Origin: a virus | Length of the DNA stretch: 30,670 nt | Strand: one strand, 5' to 3' | IMG/VR virus record: IMGVR_UViG_3300046009_005233 | Span: 1 to 30,670 of that record | Shown: positions 14,025 to 23,662 of the stretch, piece after piece | Position numbering within the stretch: the first letter of the stretch is position 1 | Layout of the letters: the number at the start of each line of letters is the position of its first letter | Notes under the pieces: generated by a model | Databases searched by the model: none | What the model saw: only the letters and a program-made list of their open reading frames with translations | What the model was told of the DNA's origin: nothing | Translations under genes and position numbers: made by a program

Positions 14025-17000
14025 TTAAATATTTTCGAAAGATGCTCCTGTTGGAGTGATCAAGAACTCAATATCGATGAATTCAAGTGCTTTCGTTGGT
14101 TTTAAGTAGATCTTACCTGTCAAAGTGTTTCTATCCAAATCTTCAGGTGTAGAAGCCACAGTAACACGGAAGTCGTATAAACCTCTATCTCTTCTGATAG
14201 CATCCAAGATTGGGTTCACCGAATCCAAGAACTGTTGTCTAACAATCTCGTCATTCTGTTCGAACAATAATCTTACCGCCACAGCTGAAATAAGTTTTCT
14301 TGCTTGTAGAAGAAGACGTCTAACATTAAGTCTATTCAATGCGGTGTCTCTGATTTGAAGTGTTTTGTTACCCCAAATAACCGTACCCACGTCAGAGAAT
14401 GTTGCGATCGGGTTGATACGACCTTGATACAATGTGTCTCTATCTTCCTGAGTCAACTTTAATCTTGCCTTCACAGAGTTAACAAGACCTCTTGTGTAAC
14501 CCGCAGATGCGAACCATGGGAAAGAAATGTTATCTGTAAGTGCCAAGTTTCTACAAACTTGTCCTGTTGCTGGGATATAGATCTGAGTGTTGTTTACCGT
14601 ATCACGTTCTAAAATCCAAGGATAGTATGTTGCCGTGTAAGAAGAATCAATACCGGTTTGATCCAAGTTATCTACGGATTGTTGAGGATAGATGATTTCA
14701 TACTGACTACCTGCATCTGCCGTGTACATGTTATAGTCAGGTGTTGTTGCTATATAAACAGAATCCGCTCTTTCATTTTCTACCATACCAATAGCCAACT
14801 CAACTAAGTTACTGTTGTTTACATAGTCAATACCTGGTGTTGCAAACACGTTAATGTTTGTAGATTCGGGGTTATTGAAAGAAAGAATACCTAACAAGTA
14901 TGCGTAGTAGTCAGTGTTTGCAAAATCTTGAGTATTGTTAGCGACTACGATTCGTTTGAATGTACCATCACCACTAGCCGTTGGGTATCTCTGAGTTTGA
15001 GTCGATCCTTGTAGGAAACCACTCGCACCTAACGCGAATCTGTCTTGGTTAGTTCTAAATGTTCTGTAAGCATCCCATCCATCAAATCCACCTTGGAAAA
15101 CAAATGAGAACTTACGAGAATACAAGAAATAGTATGGGTTTTCTTGCGTTGTTGGTTCTGCATTAAAGTTAGCAACACCACAAATAAACGCGGGTGTTCC
15201 ACTTGTTGCCTGTAAGTTACCAATAGTAATGACCGTTGCACCTGAGTCCATGTGGAAACCTTGAGTTTGGTAGTTCCATGGAATAGATGTTGTCGCAGTG
15301 TTCCAGTCAGTTACAGGATTTTGTCTTCCTTTGTATTGAACAAGATCTGAGTCAACACCAAACTGAGAAGAAATACCAAGATAAGTTCTTCTAACAACAT
15401 CACCGTTAGATGTTACTTGATTGACACCGTAAGGAGAACCGAAAGGAGGATCCCAAATAACTTGTCCTGGAAAATAATACTCATTCTTAATTATTGCAAA
15501 TGGTGAAGGGTTTGAAACACTACCGTACACTCTGTTTTCCAAACCACGGAACCCACAAGGTAATGCATCGATTGGTGCCTCATCAGACATTTCTACCATT
15601 ACAAATGTAGAAACTAAAGGATATTCACCATCAAACGAACCGATTTTTTTACCAACAAAACTATTTGACCCTATGTCTAATGTACAGTTAGTATATTTTT
15701 CATAAACAACAGGGTTTGCATCTGTGTCGAAGAAATCACGAACTAAGACATCAAAAGTTTGATTTGCGAAAGAAATGTTTGCTATAGAAATTTTTACCTC
15801 TGTGTTAGCTGAGTTACCATCAGAAATGGTTCTAAATCTGAACAAGTCAAATACTTTATTACCTCTAAGTTCAGAAACAACCCAAGGAGTGATCGGTGTT
15901 TGATATTGTTCAAGATACCAAGCAATAGATGTTGTTGATTGTTTGACACGTGCTTCGGGTAATGAAACCAAATCACAGTTTAGACCTCTGATGTAACTCT
16001 TATTATAACCATAGTTTAATAAACCAGGGAAAACCTCCTCAACAAAGAGAGGAACTTCGAATCTCGATTTATTAAAGTTAGAAATACCAAGTACTTTAGA
16101 AATGTAGTTAGAATCACCAAGACCCATAGATACGTCAAAACTAAAGTCTTGACCAAGATATGTTACACCTGAAATTTGGAAAGTTGCGTAAGGATTAGAA
16201 TTAACCGCTGAGTAAGGACCCGTGCAAATCATCTGAACATCAGTGAGACCTGTCACTTGATATTGAGGACCATGTTGTAACGCAGAATATTCAGAGATAC
16301 CTCTTGATCTCATTGTTGCAACCACTAAGTTTTGGTATTGGGTGTAGGGTGTTGCACTGTAAATGAAAATTTCACCTGATAAAGTTCCTGCAAAAGTGTT
16401 GGATGCTCCTGTGAAATAGTTTGTGATTTGAGCATTCATTGAGTAACCCGAATAAATTTCAGATGATCCCGAAAAATCAAAGTTTGCATAAAACCATGGA
16501 TCGTTAATACCATCACAAAGTTCGTTGTTCTCAAGATTCAAATTATCAACCCCATACACGTTGTTCAAGTTTGGATATGCACCAAACAGTGCCAAGTAAT
16601 CTGCACTTGGTAAAGAACCGTAGACTACAGATGTGTTACCTGAGATTGCCGTGTTACCTGATACACTTCTTGCAAAAGAATACAAATCAGCCGCAATGGT
16701 AGATGTAGAACCATCATTAAGTGTATATGTTGTACCTGAGTTAACACCTATGATTGCAGGTGCCGATGTGGTAAAACTAAATGAGTTTGTTCCTCCTGTT
16801 GAACTACCTGAGAAATTCACGGTAAATGGTATTGATGATGCCACAGTATCAATATCGATAGTTTCACAATCAGGATTCGCAGTTACACGGATAGACCAAG
16901 ATGGACCCGCGTCATATCCGCTAAGACCTAAAATTCTTGTTACAAAAAGTTGGTTAGACTGTTGGAGATATGCTTTAGCGATGTAGGCTGCTTCATACTT

Positions 17001-17237
17001 GGGGATTTGAGTTCCAATAAATTTTTCAGGAACGGTTCCACCAAAATAAGTTTGGAACTCATCGTAGTTTGTTATAAAAATAGGTTCGAAAGCCGGACCT
17101 TTAAGAGTTTCGCCAACCAATCCTAAGGTTGTTACTCCAACACTCTGTGCCACAAAAGAAAGGTCAGTTTCTGAAGTGTATACACCAGGTGATACGAATA
17201 CCTTTTGGTTAACTTGATTTGTTACTTGAAAGAACAT
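14025..17237 (-). CDS. tail sheath protein (gp18-like), enlarged
   Basis: A 1070-residue contractile sheath protein. The N-terminus has the family signature 'KVFVSPGVYTSETDLS' at about residues 12-27, then 'VGVTTLGLVGETLKGPAFEP' and 'FQTYFGG'. The C-terminus carries the conserved sheath core: 'FSDVGTVIWGNKTL' near residue 945, 'LNVRRLLLQARKLISAV' near 970, and a final 'GKIYLKPTKALEFIDIEFLI' strand region. T4 gp18 has 659 residues, so about 400 residues are extra. These lie in the middle (roughly 120-550), are rich in Ser, Gly, Thr and Asn, and look like added surface domains. A T-run terminator follows. Start at 17237 chosen because MFFQVTNQVNQ leads directly into the conserved signature. Confidence 0.9.
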   Translation of the reverse strand: MFFQVTNQVNQKVFVSPGVYTSETDLSFVAQSVGVTTLGLVGETLKGPAFEPIFITNYDEFQTYFGGTVPEKFIGTQIPKYEAAYIAKAYLQQSNQLFVTRILGLSGYDAGPSWSIRVTANPDCETIDIDTVASSIPFTVNFSGSSTGGTNSFSFTTSAPAIIGVNSGTTYTLNDGSTSTIAADLYSFARSVSGNTAISGNTSVVYGSLPSADYLALFGAYPNLNNVYGVDNLNLENNELCDGINDPWFYANFDFSGSSEIYSGYSMNAQITNYFTGASNTFAGTLSGEIFIYSATPYTQYQNLVVATMRSRGISEYSALQHGPQYQVTGLTDVQMICTGPYSAVNSNPYATFQISGVTYLGQDFSFDVSMGLGDSNYISKVLGISNFNKSRFEVPLFVEEVFPGLLNYGYNKSYIRGLNCDLVSLPEARVKQSTTSIAWYLEQYQTPITPWVVSELRGNKVFDLFRFRTISDGNSANTEVKISIANISFANQTFDVLVRDFFDTDANPVVYEKYTNCTLDIGSNSFVGKKIGSFDGEYPLVSTFVMVEMSDEAPIDALPCGFRGLENRVYGSVSNPSPFAIIKNEYYFPGQVIWDPPFGSPYGVNQVTSNGDVVRRTYLGISSQFGVDSDLVQYKGRQNPVTDWNTATTSIPWNYQTQGFHMDSGATVITIGNLQATSGTPAFICGVANFNAEPTTQENPYYFLYSRKFSFVFQGGFDGWDAYRTFRTNQDRFALGASGFLQGSTQTQRYPTASGDGTFKRIVVANNTQDFANTDYYAYLLGILSFNNPESTNINVFATPGIDYVNNSNLVELAIGMVENERADSVYIATTPDYNMYTADAGSQYEIIYPQQSVDNLDQTGIDSSYTATYYPWILERDTVNNTQIYIPATGQVCRNLALTDNISFPWFASAGYTRGLVNSVKARLKLTQEDRDTLYQGRINPIATFSDVGTVIWGNKTLQIRDTALNRLNVRRLLLQARKLISAVAVRLLFEQNDEIVRQQFLDSVNPILDAIRRDRGLYDFRVTVASTPEDLDRNTLTGKIYLKPTKALEFIDIEFLITPTGASFENI

Positions 17238-19207: not shown

Positions 19208-20962
19208 ATGAGTGGTACTATAACCATAGAATCCAAAGCGATATCTATTCTTGAAAATTATCAAGGAGCGAACAACTATATCCTAAATCTCAAGATTAAG
19301 TTACAGGTAAACAAAAAGTTTTACCCTACTCGGGCACAATCGGAATACATCATTAATAATCACGACAAACAACCAAAGGTTGCCAAGAAGTGGGTTGTTT
19401 TGGATTCTTACTTTTCGAACAAAATGGCAAACGATAAATTTCTTATTGAGATCCCTGAAAGAATGTGGATTGAAAAACTCTTAGCGGAGAAGGATAAGTC
19501 ATATCATGTTTGGGGTAAATTTTTTGAGAATGATTTATTATCGGATATTTGGGTCCCAAAAGTATCACTGATCAAAGACAATAAAGTCGAGATTAAAGAC
19601 ATTGATTATTCGAAGTATTCCCATCGTCCACCTTTGGAACATCAGAAAATTGCTATTGAATCTCTTTTGAAAAACAAAAAGTATATTTTGGCGGATGACA
19701 TGGGATTGGGAAAAACTACATCCACGATCATTGCATCATTAGAAACAAGTGCCAAAAAAATCTTGATTATTTGTCCAGCATCATTGAAAATCAATTGGCA
19801 AAGAGAGTTTCAACTCTATAGTGATAAGTCAAGTTATGTGTGTGAAGGTAAGCACTATTCTGAAGATGCCGACATTGTCATTATGAACTATGATATCATA
19901 AAAAACTTTCATGATTCAAAAGACAAAAAAAACTCAATCATTTCAAAAACTAAATTTGATTTAGTAATCATTGATGAGGCTCACTACATACAAAACGTGC
20001 AGGCACAGAGAACAAAGCTCATTAATGATTTGGTTAAAGATGTGGATCGTTTGTGGTTGTTAACAGGAACACCGATGACATCTCGTCCGATTAACTATTT
20101 CAATCTTCTATCTTTGGTTGATTCACCTGTTGCTAAAAACTGGATGGCATATGTGATTCGTTATTGTTCGGGATATCAGTTCAAGGTTGGAGCTCGCAAA
20201 GTATGGAATGTTATGGGGGCATCCAACTTGGAAGAATTACGAGATCGTACAACATCCACAGTTCTAAGAAGACTTAAGGAAGATGTTTTAGATCTTCCCG
20301 AAAAAATTATCACACCAGTTTATTTGAGACTTCGATCAAAGATTTATGAAGAACTCATGGGAGAATACTACAACTGGTACGATAAACACCCCGATGAAAG
20401 TAAAAACCTTTCGATTCAATTTACGAAGTTGTCACAAGTTAGGCAAGTTATTGCTGATGAAAAAACTCAACATACTATTGAACTTGCAGAAAATATTATA
20501 GAGCAAGGAAAAAAGGTTATTATTTTCTGTAACTTCACAAAATCTTTACAAACCATTTATGAACATTTTGGAAAACAAGCAGTAAGACTTGATGGGTCAA
20601 TGTCAAAGACCCAACGACAAGATTCTGTTGATCGTTTTCAAGATGACGAAAATATTAAAGTTTTTGTGGGAAACATAAAAGCAGCTGGTGTGGGTATTAC
20701 TCTCACAGCAGCAGAAGCCGTTATTATGAATGATCTTTCTTTCCTACCTTCAGACCACTCACAATCTGAAGATAGAGCATATCGTTATGGACAAAAAAAT
20801 AATGTGTTAGTTTACTACCCCATTTTTGACAACACGATAGAAGGAATTATCTACGACATACTCAATAACAAGAAAAGAATCATTGCAACTGTGATGGGTG
20901 ACACCCAAGATGAAACAAATGTTGTGGAAGAAATTTTAAGAAGTATTGCCGAAAGAAGATAA
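19208..20962 (+). CDS. SNF2-family (SMARCAL1/HARP-like) DNA helicase
   Basis: A 584-residue superfamily 2 ATPase. Motif I is 'LADDMGLGKTTS' at about residues 161-172, motif II 'IIDEAHYI' at ~252-259, motif III 'LTGTPMTSRP' at ~283-292, motif V 'NIKAAGVGITLTAA' near 491-504, and motif VI 'SEDRAYRYGQ' near 520-529, which is the SNF2-type Q-x-x-x-R-x-x-R-x-G-Q pattern. The family remodels or anneals DNA and in phages may do the job of UvsW-type helicases in recombination and fork repair. The ATG at 19208 (MSGTITIESKA) is chosen; an upstream in-frame ATG at 19097 would overlap the divergent gp14-like gene. It leads a plus-strand block with the SOD fusion and gp13-like genes. Confidence 0.9.
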   Translation: MSGTITIESKAISILENYQGANNYILNLKIKLQVNKKFYPTRAQSEYIINNHDKQPKVAKKWVVLDSYFSNKMANDKFLIEIPERMWIEKLLAEKDKSYHVWGKFFENDLLSDIWVPKVSLIKDNKVEIKDIDYSKYSHRPPLEHQKIAIESLLKNKKYILADDMGLGKTTSTIIASLETSAKKILIICPASLKINWQREFQLYSDKSSYVCEGKHYSEDADIVIMNYDIIKNFHDSKDKKNSIISKTKFDLVIIDEAHYIQNVQAQRTKLINDLVKDVDRLWLLTGTPMTSRPINYFNLLSLVDSPVAKNWMAYVIRYCSGYQFKVGARKVWNVMGASNLEELRDRTTSTVLRRLKEDVLDLPEKIITPVYLRLRSKIYEELMGEYYNWYDKHPDESKNLSIQFTKLSQVRQVIADEKTQHTIELAENIIEQGKKVIIFCNFTKSLQTIYEHFGKQAVRLDGSMSKTQRQDSVDRFQDDENIKVFVGNIKAAGVGITLTAAEAVIMNDLSFLPSDHSQSEDRAYRYGQKNNVLVYYPIFDNTIEGIIYDILNNKKRIIATVMGDTQDETNVVEEILRSIAERR

Positions 20963-20978: not shown

Positions 20979-20986
20979 TATTTATA
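20979..20986 (+). promoter_or_regulatory. TATTTATA promoter-like element before the SOD fusion gene
   Basis: CTATTATTTATAAAG ends 15 bases before the ATG at 21002, in the 39-base gap after the helicase gene. Same element and orientation as before the tail genes. Confidence 0.4.
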
Positions 20987-21001: not shown

Positions 21002-22528
21002 ATGCAACATTTACAAGAATCGGTAGAACGGGTTGAAAAACAGATTCTACAAGAACAAACAAAACAGGAGTTAAAAGTTTTGATTACAGAAATGAAAAAA
21101 ATAGGGATCGAAAAACTTCCTTACTCCTACTCAGCCCTGAAACGTTTTATTGATCCCGAGACAATGAACGTTCACTACAACAAACACTACAAGGGTTACG
21201 TCGACAAACTAAACACCCTTCTTTCGAAAAGAAAGGGAGATAAAGACCTTGAGAAGATTGTTAGAAATATATCAAGATATCCCAAAGGGATACGAGATAA
21301 CGCTGGTGGAGCATTCAACCACGCACTATTTTGGAACATGTTATCCCCTCAACCTACTGAAGTAGGACCCGAGGTAATGAAGAAAATCAAAAAAGACTTC
21401 GGATCTTTTATGAAATTTAAAAAAGAGTTTGAGGATGTTGCTAAACAACGTTTCGGTTCGGGTTGGGTTTGGTTAGTCCTTACAAACAAAGGAACTCTGA
21501 AGGTTATGTCAACACCCAACCAAGACAATCCACTAATGAACATCATTGAAGGTGGGGGATATCCTTTACTTGGATTAGACCTATGGGAACATGCCTATTA
21601 TTTAAAATATAAAAATAAAAGAGACGAATACATCAAAAACTTCTGGATTGCCGTAAATTGGCCCTTCGTAGAAACTATGTACACAATGAAAACAGAAACA
21701 TCTCTTTTGGAATCCGTAGCCCTCGGAAAACTTTTAAAGGAATCGAAGTCCGAGTCTTGCTCAAGAGTTGAAACCGAAATTTACCGAATGCTATTCAACG
21801 TAAACAAACAAGCAAGAAACATTTATAAGAACACCATCAATGATGTTCTGAAAAAAACTTTTTCCGACAAATACCACACTAAAACTGAGGGTGGTGAAAT
21901 ACCTGGCATCTATAACTTAGAAAAACCGGGAAGATCTGTAATCAACTACATGAATACCAACTATTCAGTTTTTTGTCTTATGGTTCGTGATTTAAACAAA
22001 GTTGTTACAAACTTGGGTGAACCATTGTTAGATTTTACAGACAAGACCCCGGCGGAACAAGTCAGAGAAGTAAAAAGAATGTGTAACTACATTGAGTCAT
22101 TCAGAGAAAGAATCTTTAACCCGGATAGTTCTACATTCAAAAATATTATGAACACCCTTAAGGAAAAAGATTCTATAGGAACAAAGAGAGAAACCTCAGC
22201 GAAAATGGTTATTGAAAACAACCTACCAAATGCTAAAGTTGAAACCACTGCGGGTGCCGGTAAAGAAAAAGATGCTTTCCAAAAAATTGATATGGAAATT
22301 TTTATGGATTCAAAAAAACACACCGCTCAGGTTAAGGGTTTTGATCAACTGGTTCCTGAAGGTAATAAACTTACCGTTACTAAAACAGGTGAAGTAGAAA
22401 AATATAATGTGGATTGGATGGTTTTTATTAGAGGAAAACATGTAATAATTTTCAAAAACAATCCAAATATAGTCCTTGGACAATACGTATTTGACAAAGA
22501 AGACCTACTTTACGATTTTGGTGGGTAA
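21002..22528 (+). CDS. Mn-type superoxide dismutase fused to probable PD-(D/E)XK nuclease domain
   Basis: A 508-residue fusion. Residues ~38-225 form a full Fe/Mn superoxide dismutase: 'LPYSYSALKRFIDPETMNVH' gives ligand His58, 'FNHALFWNML' gives His107, and 'LDLWEHAYYL' gives Asp193 and His197; the pocket residues His62 and Tyr66 are also present. Gly103 and Gln174 (in 'NQDNPLM') are at the positions typical of Mn rather than Fe enzymes. SOD converts superoxide to peroxide and oxygen. Residues 1-36 are a charged helix. Residues ~230-508 do not belong to SOD: after a helical region, 'FQKIDMEIFM' (Asp430) and 'TAQVKG' (Gln443, Lys445) follow a helix with Glu, the layout of a PD-(D/E)XK nuclease (D-x12-Q-x-K). 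SOD is confident, the nuclease call moderate. It lies between helicase and neck genes. Confidence 0.85.
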   Translation: MQHLQESVERVEKQILQEQTKQELKVLITEMKKIGIEKLPYSYSALKRFIDPETMNVHYNKHYKGYVDKLNTLLSKRKGDKDLEKIVRNISRYPKGIRDNAGGAFNHALFWNMLSPQPTEVGPEVMKKIKKDFGSFMKFKKEFEDVAKQRFGSGWVWLVLTNKGTLKVMSTPNQDNPLMNIIEGGGYPLLGLDLWEHAYYLKYKNKRDEYIKNFWIAVNWPFVETMYTMKTETSLLESVALGKLLKESKSESCSRVETEIYRMLFNVNKQARNIYKNTINDVLKKTFSDKYHTKTEGGEIPGIYNLEKPGRSVINYMNTNYSVFCLMVRDLNKVVTNLGEPLLDFTDKTPAEQVREVKRMCNYIESFRERIFNPDSSTFKNIMNTLKEKDSIGTKRETSAKMVIENNLPNAKVETTAGAGKEKDAFQKIDMEIFMDSKKHTAQVKGFDQLVPEGNKLTVTKTGEVEKYNVDWMVFIRGKHVIIFKNNPNIVLGQYVFDKEDLLYDFGG

Positions 22529-22532
22529 TGAC

Positions 22533-22540
22533 TATTTATA
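22533..22540 (+). promoter_or_regulatory. TATTTATA promoter-like element before the gp13-like gene
   Basis: GACTATTTATAGTT lies between the SOD fusion stop and the ATG at 22544, leaving 3 bases. If it acts as a -10 box, the transcript would start at or just past the start codon, so it may instead bind at another distance. Confidence 0.4.
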
Positions 22541-22543
22541 GTT

Positions 22544-23662
22544 ATGTCAGTTATACCAGAACCCGAAAGAAGCAAACTTTACACAAGAGTTAAGCATCAA
22601 CTTGGTGCGCCTCTAAGAAGTGTTGAAATTGAAGATGAGATGATGGACTCATTAATGGAGTTTTCAATTCAAGATTACGAACAATATACATTAGATTGGC
22701 TCATAGAGTCTCAGTGGGTTAACTTGGTTAACCTAAACATGAAAGAACAATCTGTTGCGCGTGCATTGACTACAAGAACACTTAATTTTGAAGATCAGTT
22801 TGCGTATGCATATTCTAAAATAGTTGGACTACAAACCGTAGGTCCTTGGGTTATTAAAAAAGATTACTTTATTTTAAGTGCAAACACTCAGTCTTATGAA
22901 ATTCCAGCGGGTAGAGAAGTAAACGAACTTTTATGGTTCTCGAACAGACCATTACAAAACTTAGCCCTTTGGGGTACAACTGACTATGGATTTGGAGGAC
23001 TTGGGTTAGGGGCTAACCAAGCGGGTTATGCTCAAATGGGAAATGCTGGTTCATATTTTATGATGAGTGGTTTTGACTACTTAGTTAGAGCTCAAGAGGC
23101 GAATATCCTTAATAGAATCCTTGGTAGTGAACTAACTTACAAAATCACAGGGTTACCTGATGGAAAAAAAATGATTACCCTTTACAACGCACCTGGTAGT
23201 AACTTCTCTTGGAGTAACTATTCTCAATACACGGGAAATGCGGTTTGGTATTGGTACTATGATGTTGATGGTGATAGTAGAGAACAATGTTTAAAAGACA
23301 ACCCCGACATTATTAAACTTCCGTCTGATGTTCCGTTAGAAGAACTTTCTTGGGAAGATTTAAATTCACCAGCAAAACAGTGGGTTAGAAGGTGGTTTGT
23401 TGCGTATGTAAAAGAAACCCTTGCGAGAGTTCGAGGAAAATACAGTGGTAATCTTAAAACCCCTGACAGTGAAATTGTGATGGATTATCAATCCTTACTC
23501 ACAGAATCAAAAGATGAAAAATCAAAACTCGAAGAAGAATTAAAACTACGTCTTGAGAGATTGCGTCCTGAAAATCAAATGAAGAAGGAAGCGGAAATTG
23601 CCGAAAACTTAAACAAACAAATGAAGTTTAGGGCGATGCCAAGACAGATCTATGTAATCTAA
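22544..23662 (+). CDS. neck protein (gp13-like)
   Basis: A 372-residue homologue of T4 gp13, which with gp14 forms the neck that closes the filled head and accepts the tail. The N-terminus 'LYTRVKHQLGAPLRSVEIED' (residues ~12-31) matches the gp13 pattern 'L-x-x-x-I-x-R-x-L-G-A-P-x-x-x-V-E-L', followed by a helix with 'YEQYT'. The C-terminal 'KQWVRRWFVAYVKETLARVR' and 'GKYSG', then 'DYQSLLTESKDEKSKLEEEL', is the paired helix region seen at the T4 gp13 end ('NRWVKDYATALAKELNG', 'EARLEKEALREELY'). The middle is Tyr/Gly-rich as in the family. It is longer than T4 gp13 (309). In T4, genes 13, 14 and 15 are adjacent; here gp13-like is on the opposite strand and 3.4 kb away. Confidence 0.8.
   Translation: MSVIPEPERSKLYTRVKHQLGAPLRSVEIEDEMMDSLMEFSIQDYEQYTLDWLIESQWVNLVNLNMKEQSVARALTTRTLNFEDQFAYAYSKIVGLQTVGPWVIKKDYFILSANTQSYEIPAGREVNELLWFSNRPLQNLALWGTTDYGFGGLGLGANQAGYAQMGNAGSYFMMSGFDYLVRAQEANILNRILGSELTYKITGLPDGKKMITLYNAPGSNFSWSNYSQYTGNAVWYWYYDVDGDSREQCLKDNPDIIKLPSDVPLEELSWEDLNSPAKQWVRRWFVAYVKETLARVRGKYSGNLKTPDSEIVMDYQSLLTESKDEKSKLEEELKLRLERLRPENQMKKEAEIAENLNKQMKFRAMPRQIYVI

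Follow-up and report, generated by a model that had tools for sequence, protein, structure and literature searches.

A superoxide dismutase–nuclease-fold fusion conserved in uncultured T4-like phages is a candidate precursor of virion cargo

Why should a phage carry a superoxide dismutase (SOD) fused to a nuclease-like domain, directly before a neck gene? The window (the whole 30.7-kb stretch of viral DNA analysed here) contains such a gene. A first-pass annotation, made from the letters alone, read it as an ORF with an SOD half and a second, nuclease-like half, and both are borne out, the SOD by Pfam and homology and the C terminus by fold. The features on which the argument draws are as follows, with an arrow marking each proposed cut.

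19220–20962, + strand: SNF2/UvsW-type helicase gene upstream of the fusion (start uncertain; longest ORF from 19097)
20979–20986, + strand: late-promoter-like box TATTTATA, 23 nt before the fusion ATG
21002–22528, + strand: SOD–PD-(D/E)XK nuclease fusion gene, ATG start, 508-aa ORF
21002–21091, + strand: residues 1–30, variable helical N-terminal segment, the proposed propeptide or capsid-targeting segment
21089–21091, + strand: Glu30, P1 of proposed prohead-protease site N (ITE↓M in the window)
21107–21685, + strand: Mn-type SOD (SodFM1), residues 36–228, with ligands H58, H107, D193 and H197
21686–21757, + strand: variable linker, residues 229–252, bearing two proposed cleavage sites
21710–21712, + strand: Glu237, P1 of proposed site A (LLE↓S)
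21740–21742, + strand: Glu247, P1 of proposed site B (LKE↓S)
21758–22129, + strand: mostly helical middle region, residues 253–376
22130–22525, + strand: PD-(D/E)XK nuclease-fold domain, residues 377–508, with E397, D424, D430, Q443 and K445 invariant
22533–22540, + strand: second TATTTATA box, before the neck gene
22544–23662, + strand: neck/head–tail adaptor gene (phrog_211, E = 2e-11), adjoining the fusion in all loci checked

The two halves of the fusion

The fusion matches Pfam Sod_Fe_C (E = 3.9e-39, 133.2 bits against a cut-off of 20.9) and Sod_Fe_N (E = 2.5e-20, 73.2 bits, cut-off 27), both above cut-off, and the closest solved SOD relative is S. aureus SodA (5n56, E = 3.8e-58 across residues 36–228). 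We compared 48 phage copies of the fusion, each <85% identical to the others. All 48 keep the metal ligands (three His and one Asp: H58, H107, D193 and H197) and the second-sphere Mn-type residues G103 and Q174, and 47 keep the XD-2 residue G191. The four ligands and Mn-type outer-sphere residues seen in the first pass are thus shared by relatives, the ligands without a single loss. A C-terminal water-coordinating Gln and a Gly at XD-2 are indicators of Mn preference (PMC10172142); on this pair, a strong indicator and not proof, the fusion SOD is predicted to be a SodFM1 enzyme that prefers Mn. With bacterial SodA/SodFM1 (S. aureus 5n56; Sphingobacterium 6gsc) it shares the full domain, all ligands and the same Gln and Gly at about 43–49% identity, but sits inside a 508-aa phage protein, behind a 30-aa leader and ahead of a 280-aa C-terminal extension.

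The first-pass remark that a phage-encoded SOD is unusual needs softening, given reports of SODs in freshwater phages (PMC6802176) and stand-alone SODs in cultured jumbo phages. The latter (PA5oct, MIJ3 and Vibrio phage 2.275) are, like the fusion, phage-encoded Fe/Mn SODs, but are 182–189 aa long, unfused and 27–29% identical to the fusion SOD. SODs 44–48% identical to the query also occur in records named as phages of Staphylococcus, Enterococcus, Salmonella, Listeria or Escherichia; these records are partly very short or unannotated, and probably represent host DNA in the phage collection. Such matches (Staphylococcus phage 'Kay', Salmonella and others) look like host contigs and were left unused.

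Structure prediction, the check proposed for the C-terminal half, returned a confident model of residues 249–508 (pLDDT 91.7, pTM 0.86). Its four top-ranked fold matches in the PDB are the four chains of I-Ssp6803I (2ost), a PD-(D/E)XK homing endonuclease, with probabilities of 0.99–1.00 and modest E-values (best 1.8e-3, hence no solved fold match below 1e-3); the restriction enzymes BstEII and BsaWI follow with weak scores. Even this best solved match is distant (11–13% identity, TM about 0.25 of the query), and the fusion differs from it in having no intron context and an additional helical middle region. DSSP gives the order H377–407, E411–415, H422–427, E431–435 and E438–446, placing D430 just ahead of the core strands and Q443-x-K445 inside them, so that the PD-(D/E)XK helix–strand order is present. 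All 48 sequences keep E397, G420, D424, D430, Q443 and K445; the middle region has its own invariant residues (C253, G302, E307, S312, N315, T319, C325, D330 and N332). Because the model retrieves PD-(D/E)XK enzymes first in the PDB, the D-x12-Q-V-K arrangement picked out in the first pass (D430-x12-Q443-V-K445) is not a chance motif, and by this modelling the C-terminal part is a PD-(D/E)XK nuclease fold; a different fold, which would have counted against the first-pass reading, was not what the search returned.

Curated nuclease families in Pfam, PADLOC and NCBIfam gave no sequence match to the C-terminal part. Divergent PD-(D/E)XK members commonly lack a curated family match, and such a match is no strict requirement for membership. 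Matches of the C terminus to Pfam PgaPase_1 and to a PDB Nucleoprotein were discarded as sub-threshold noise. An uncultured marine phage has the same middle-plus-nuclease fold in a protein of 1113 aa (A0A8D9CCA0 in BFVD; TMq 0.85, 17% identity), so this module occurs in other settings.

Distribution and kinship

Searching other phages for the fusion, as had been suggested, gave at least 349 IMG/VR contigs matching the whole-protein query and 494 matching the C-terminal profile, with none in cultured phages. Every intact copy checked has both domains, and the C-terminal part is joined to an SOD in all 198 loci examined (two escaped the regular expression, and an SOD was recognized on reading them). 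Neither a stand-alone nuclease nor a stand-alone SOD variant turned up in the clade, among 198 C-terminal matches and 77 neck loci. One copy (L070, 865–2266) is divided into two ORFs by an apparent frameshift, through sequencing error or decay. The fusion lies directly upstream of the neck gene in 77 of 77 assessable loci, a 78th being cut off within the fusion. It seems to belong to the core genes of a widely sampled, uncultured clade of T4-like myoviruses, which makes a marginal role unlikely.

A scan of species genomes of bacteria and archaea (about 85,000) with patterns from SOD stretches turned up no fusion; a free nuclease relative would escape such patterns. A bacterial origin was considered and rejected: 55 genome loci matched, all within the SOD (residues ~5–240) and none in the C terminus. 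Three C-terminal queries likewise gave no tblastn match among the 50,697 phage records searched. Judged by major capsid protein (MCP), the named phages closest to the clade are an uncultured one of 484 kb, Microcystis phage Mel-JY01 and Flavobacterium phage immuto; these three records have neither the SOD nor the C-terminal part, the A2 search among them having had no positive control. In UniProt, A0A6J5L953 ('superoxide dismutase [uncultured Caudovirales phage]', 501 aa) matches the C-terminal model with TMq 0.91 over 254 columns and, judged by that structural match, evidently belongs to the same protein family; it is filed under the SOD name only, and no text on a nuclease part or cleavage sites was found for it.

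Candidate prohead-protease sites and the head-gene setting

T4 gp21, the prohead protease, cuts after L/I-X-E (PMC9026906). We propose that three conserved sites of this type, newly described here from the alignment, flank the SOD, with cuts after E30 (site N), E237 (site A) and E247 (site B). In 38 aligned sequences, site N has L, I or V at position 28 and Glu at position 30 without exception (LQE↓G, LHE↓A or LTE↓T in relatives). Site A retains E237 in 36/38, L, I, V or M at P3 in 38/38 and a small P1′ (Ser or Thr) in 34/38, and site B retains E247 in 37/38, with Ser, Gly, Thr, Ala or Gln at P1′. Just four triplets in the 508-column alignment are conserved as (L/I)-x-E: these three and the catalytic WEH of the SOD. 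E237 and E247 are the top two conserved columns of the variable linker, whose mean entropy is 1.99 bits against 0.74 for the SOD, and strict [LI]xE[AGST] matches occur there at least once in 46/48 and at least twice in 34/48 sequences (shuffles that preserve composition give 7.3 and 0.4). Sites lie on either side of the SOD, with S. aureus SodA (199 aa) aligning to residues 36–228 between them. AlphaFold pLDDT falls below 50 at residues 1–5, 19–42 and 234–249; with confidence lowest at the latter two stretches, the sites look exposed.

Not all sites conform to the strict T4 pattern, since P1′ of site N is usually Met and that of site B is Gln in some relatives; a few members (LTEI, LIQE) have lost or moved site A, and one (L080) has done so with site B. 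A strict orthologue count over three genomes omits the fusion because P1′ falls outside A/G/S/T in two of them (G002 and G009), where the relaxed L/I-x-E holds. The motif is also short, and across the proteome of relative G001 [LI]xE[AGST] is near chance (143 observed, 132 expected; G002 is somewhat above), which leaves room for the glutamates to be conserved for other reasons, such as helix capping, dimer contacts or a host protease, their likeness to gp21 sites being accidental. We consider this very improbable: P3 and P1 are kept while P2 varies, P1′ is small at site A, the pattern recurs three times around one domain, and strict matches in the linker lie far above those in shuffles.

A protease of the gp21 type is known from relatives, the window being a fragment without the gene. 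A gp21-type Peptidase_S77 is encoded in 7 of 17 long relatives (G001–G005, G009 and G011; the others are possibly fragments), with a PHROG match to head maturation protease. In three divergent genomes, conserved [LI]xE[AGST] sites are most numerous in a scaffold-like (4) and a core-like (3) protein adjoining the protease gene; neither has a family match, and these labels therefore rest on position and composition. The MCP has two, including LINE↓AS near residue 60. The T4 capsid protein loses 65 residues, and T4-type MCPs are processed near that position.

The promoter-like element mentioned in the first pass is the TATTTATA box. Of 48 non-redundant loci, 39 have it exactly within 80 nt upstream of the fusion and 7 more have it with one mismatch, against a chance expectation of about 0.016 per 80 nt. 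It lies in sense orientation within 60 nt upstream of about 20 genes per genome (G001, G002 and G009; in G001, 22 sense against 5 antisense before genes, 33 sites in all). Most are structural, and portal-like, scaffold-like, tube, baseplate and neck genes are among them. We take the box to be a variant of the T4 late box TATAAATA; it looks like the clade's late promoter, and its presence upstream of both the fusion and structural genes supports late expression of the fusion alongside these. The neighbouring neck gene named in the first pass is confirmed by its phrog_211 match.

Could the fusion nonetheless remain in the cell as one uncleaved bifunctional late enzyme, its SOD guarding the infected cell and DNA from superoxide while the nuclease processes DNA or tethers the SOD? 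Freshwater-phage SODs have been proposed as a defence against ROS (PMC6802176), jumbo phages encode their stand-alone SODs amid genes for chaperones, proteases or translation and not amid head genes, and the fusion is never split, save for the probably frameshifted copy. This reading leaves unexplained, however, why E30, E237 and E247 and their aliphatic P3 residues are conserved in otherwise variable segments, and why the gene constantly adjoins the neck gene behind a structural-gene promoter box; we judge it unlikely. Alternatively, the protein might be packed into the head and stay intact, or be cut at its N terminus only, with the SOD guarding packaged DNA against oxidative damage and the nuclease fold serving as a DNA-binding anchor. 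PD-(D/E)XK domains can function in DNA binding, and the late promoter box and head/neck context fit this packaged form. A pure anchor would have no need of E397, D424, D430, Q443 and K445, invariant in 48/48, and the linker sites are conserved too; this alternative seems to us still less probable than the uncleaved enzyme.

A proposed precursor of two packaged enzymes

The conserved (L/I)xE sites that flank the SOD suggest a separable precursor, and they make unnecessary the first-pass idea that the fusion couples metal delivery to a nuclease. Of the first-pass readings, the Mn-type SOD, the PD-(D/E)XK fold and the guess at a virion protein gained support from homology, a confident fold and context, and that of a single bifunctional enzyme lost ground; judged from sequence, the interpretation moves from a fusion enzyme to what is probably a virion polyprotein. 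Both domains with intact active-site residues, the conserved sites, the relatives' protease, the late-promoter-like box and the synteny were all found by computation. The reading we favour, and hold to be probable, is that the fusion is packaged in the head as a precursor, which the prohead protease divides into two free enzymes that are delivered with the DNA.

We infer packaging, cleavage, delivery and enzyme activity as follows. Expressed late, the fusion would enter the prohead as a precursor, and the T4-gp21-type protease would cleave it there on the C-terminal side of (L/I)-x-E. With cleavage at Glu30, Glu237 and Glu247, a propeptide of 30 residues and a spacer of 10 would be lost. The products would be a free Mn-SOD of 207 aa (residues 31–237), a usual length for SodA, and a free middle-plus-nuclease fragment of 261 aa (residues 248–508). 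Both enzymes would stay in the mature head and enter the host along with the DNA. Their roles there are conjectural: the SOD might reduce superoxide at the start of infection, possibly countering a burst that arises from infection or defence, and the nuclease might act on DNA, for example the host's or a competitor's. Were this so, the virus would have an SOD of its own before phage gene expression. Whether SOD and nuclease form a natural virion 'cargo polyprotein', made as one precursor, freed in the head by the maturation protease and injected with the genome, we regard as evenly poised.

The closest precedents are the internal head proteins of T4 (IPI, IPII, IPIII and Alt), whose capsid-targeting propeptides are cut by gp21 (PMC9026906, PMC9958956). 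The fusion resembles them in being a late gene of a T4-like phage with (L/I)-x-E sites, in the gp21-type protease of its relatives and in its proposed delivery with DNA. It differs in that T4 internal proteins have one mature domain after a short propeptide, whereas the fusion has sites on both sides of a metabolic enzyme and would release two enzymes. Its N-terminal segment does contain a helix, but this is not recognizably like the T4 capsid-targeting sequence (CTS), a comparison made by eye alone. Polyvalent proteins of phages and plasmids also combine disparate enzyme domains in one injected polypeptide, some of them proposed to be released proteolytically (PMC5512222); in the fusion, the proposed cutter is a trans-acting prohead protease and not an embedded peptidase. 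The text of that survey makes no mention of SOD or superoxide.

Engineering has turned T4 into a carrier of nucleases joined to the CTS or to IPIII, and adding calcium let a packaged staphylococcal nuclease cleave the DNA of its own phage (PMC9026906), from which it follows that a natural nuclease cargo would need restraint. Such restraint might come from dependence on a metal, from modified bases or from an enzyme that stays inactive until released. The clade encodes thymidylate synthase and at least one carbamoyltransferase, so DNA modification stays possible. In G001, a confirmed carbamoyltransferase, a similar second ORF and thymidylate synthase lie at 149732–151405, 151408–153012 and 165358–166413; by their sequence, these genes are possible agents of DNA-base or sugar modification.

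If the favoured reading is true, the principle of T4 internal proteins, so far a matter of single anti-restriction or host-modifying proteins, would extend to a two-enzyme precursor with a metabolic enzyme, and viruses would have a new route for delivering an antioxidant enzyme. Superoxide would then trouble these phages at infection or in the free virion, beyond the late infected cell. Conserved prohead-protease sites in late genes would reveal hidden virion cargo from sequence alone, by a test applicable to any T4-like phage.

Three further observations concern proteins of the clade. Beside the prohead protease lies a gene for a 235-aa protein (L092, 17815–18519; G001, 112812–113519) with six [LI]xE[AGST] motifs (1.0 expected), three of them conserved in divergent relatives, and no PHROG or Pfam match; it is likely a core or internal head protein. 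The tail sheath protein of the window (14025–17237) is unusually long at 1070 aa, known sheath families matching its C-terminal third only. Finally, several small and otherwise different proteins (G001 105382, 125705 and 126638; G009 11489 and 17438) have a common N-terminal tag, MKK(I/V)(I/V)(R/K)LTE(S/T/G)D(L/I)...; as its LTE↓S is reminiscent of prohead-protease sites, the tag may serve for capsid targeting and mark further virion cargo.
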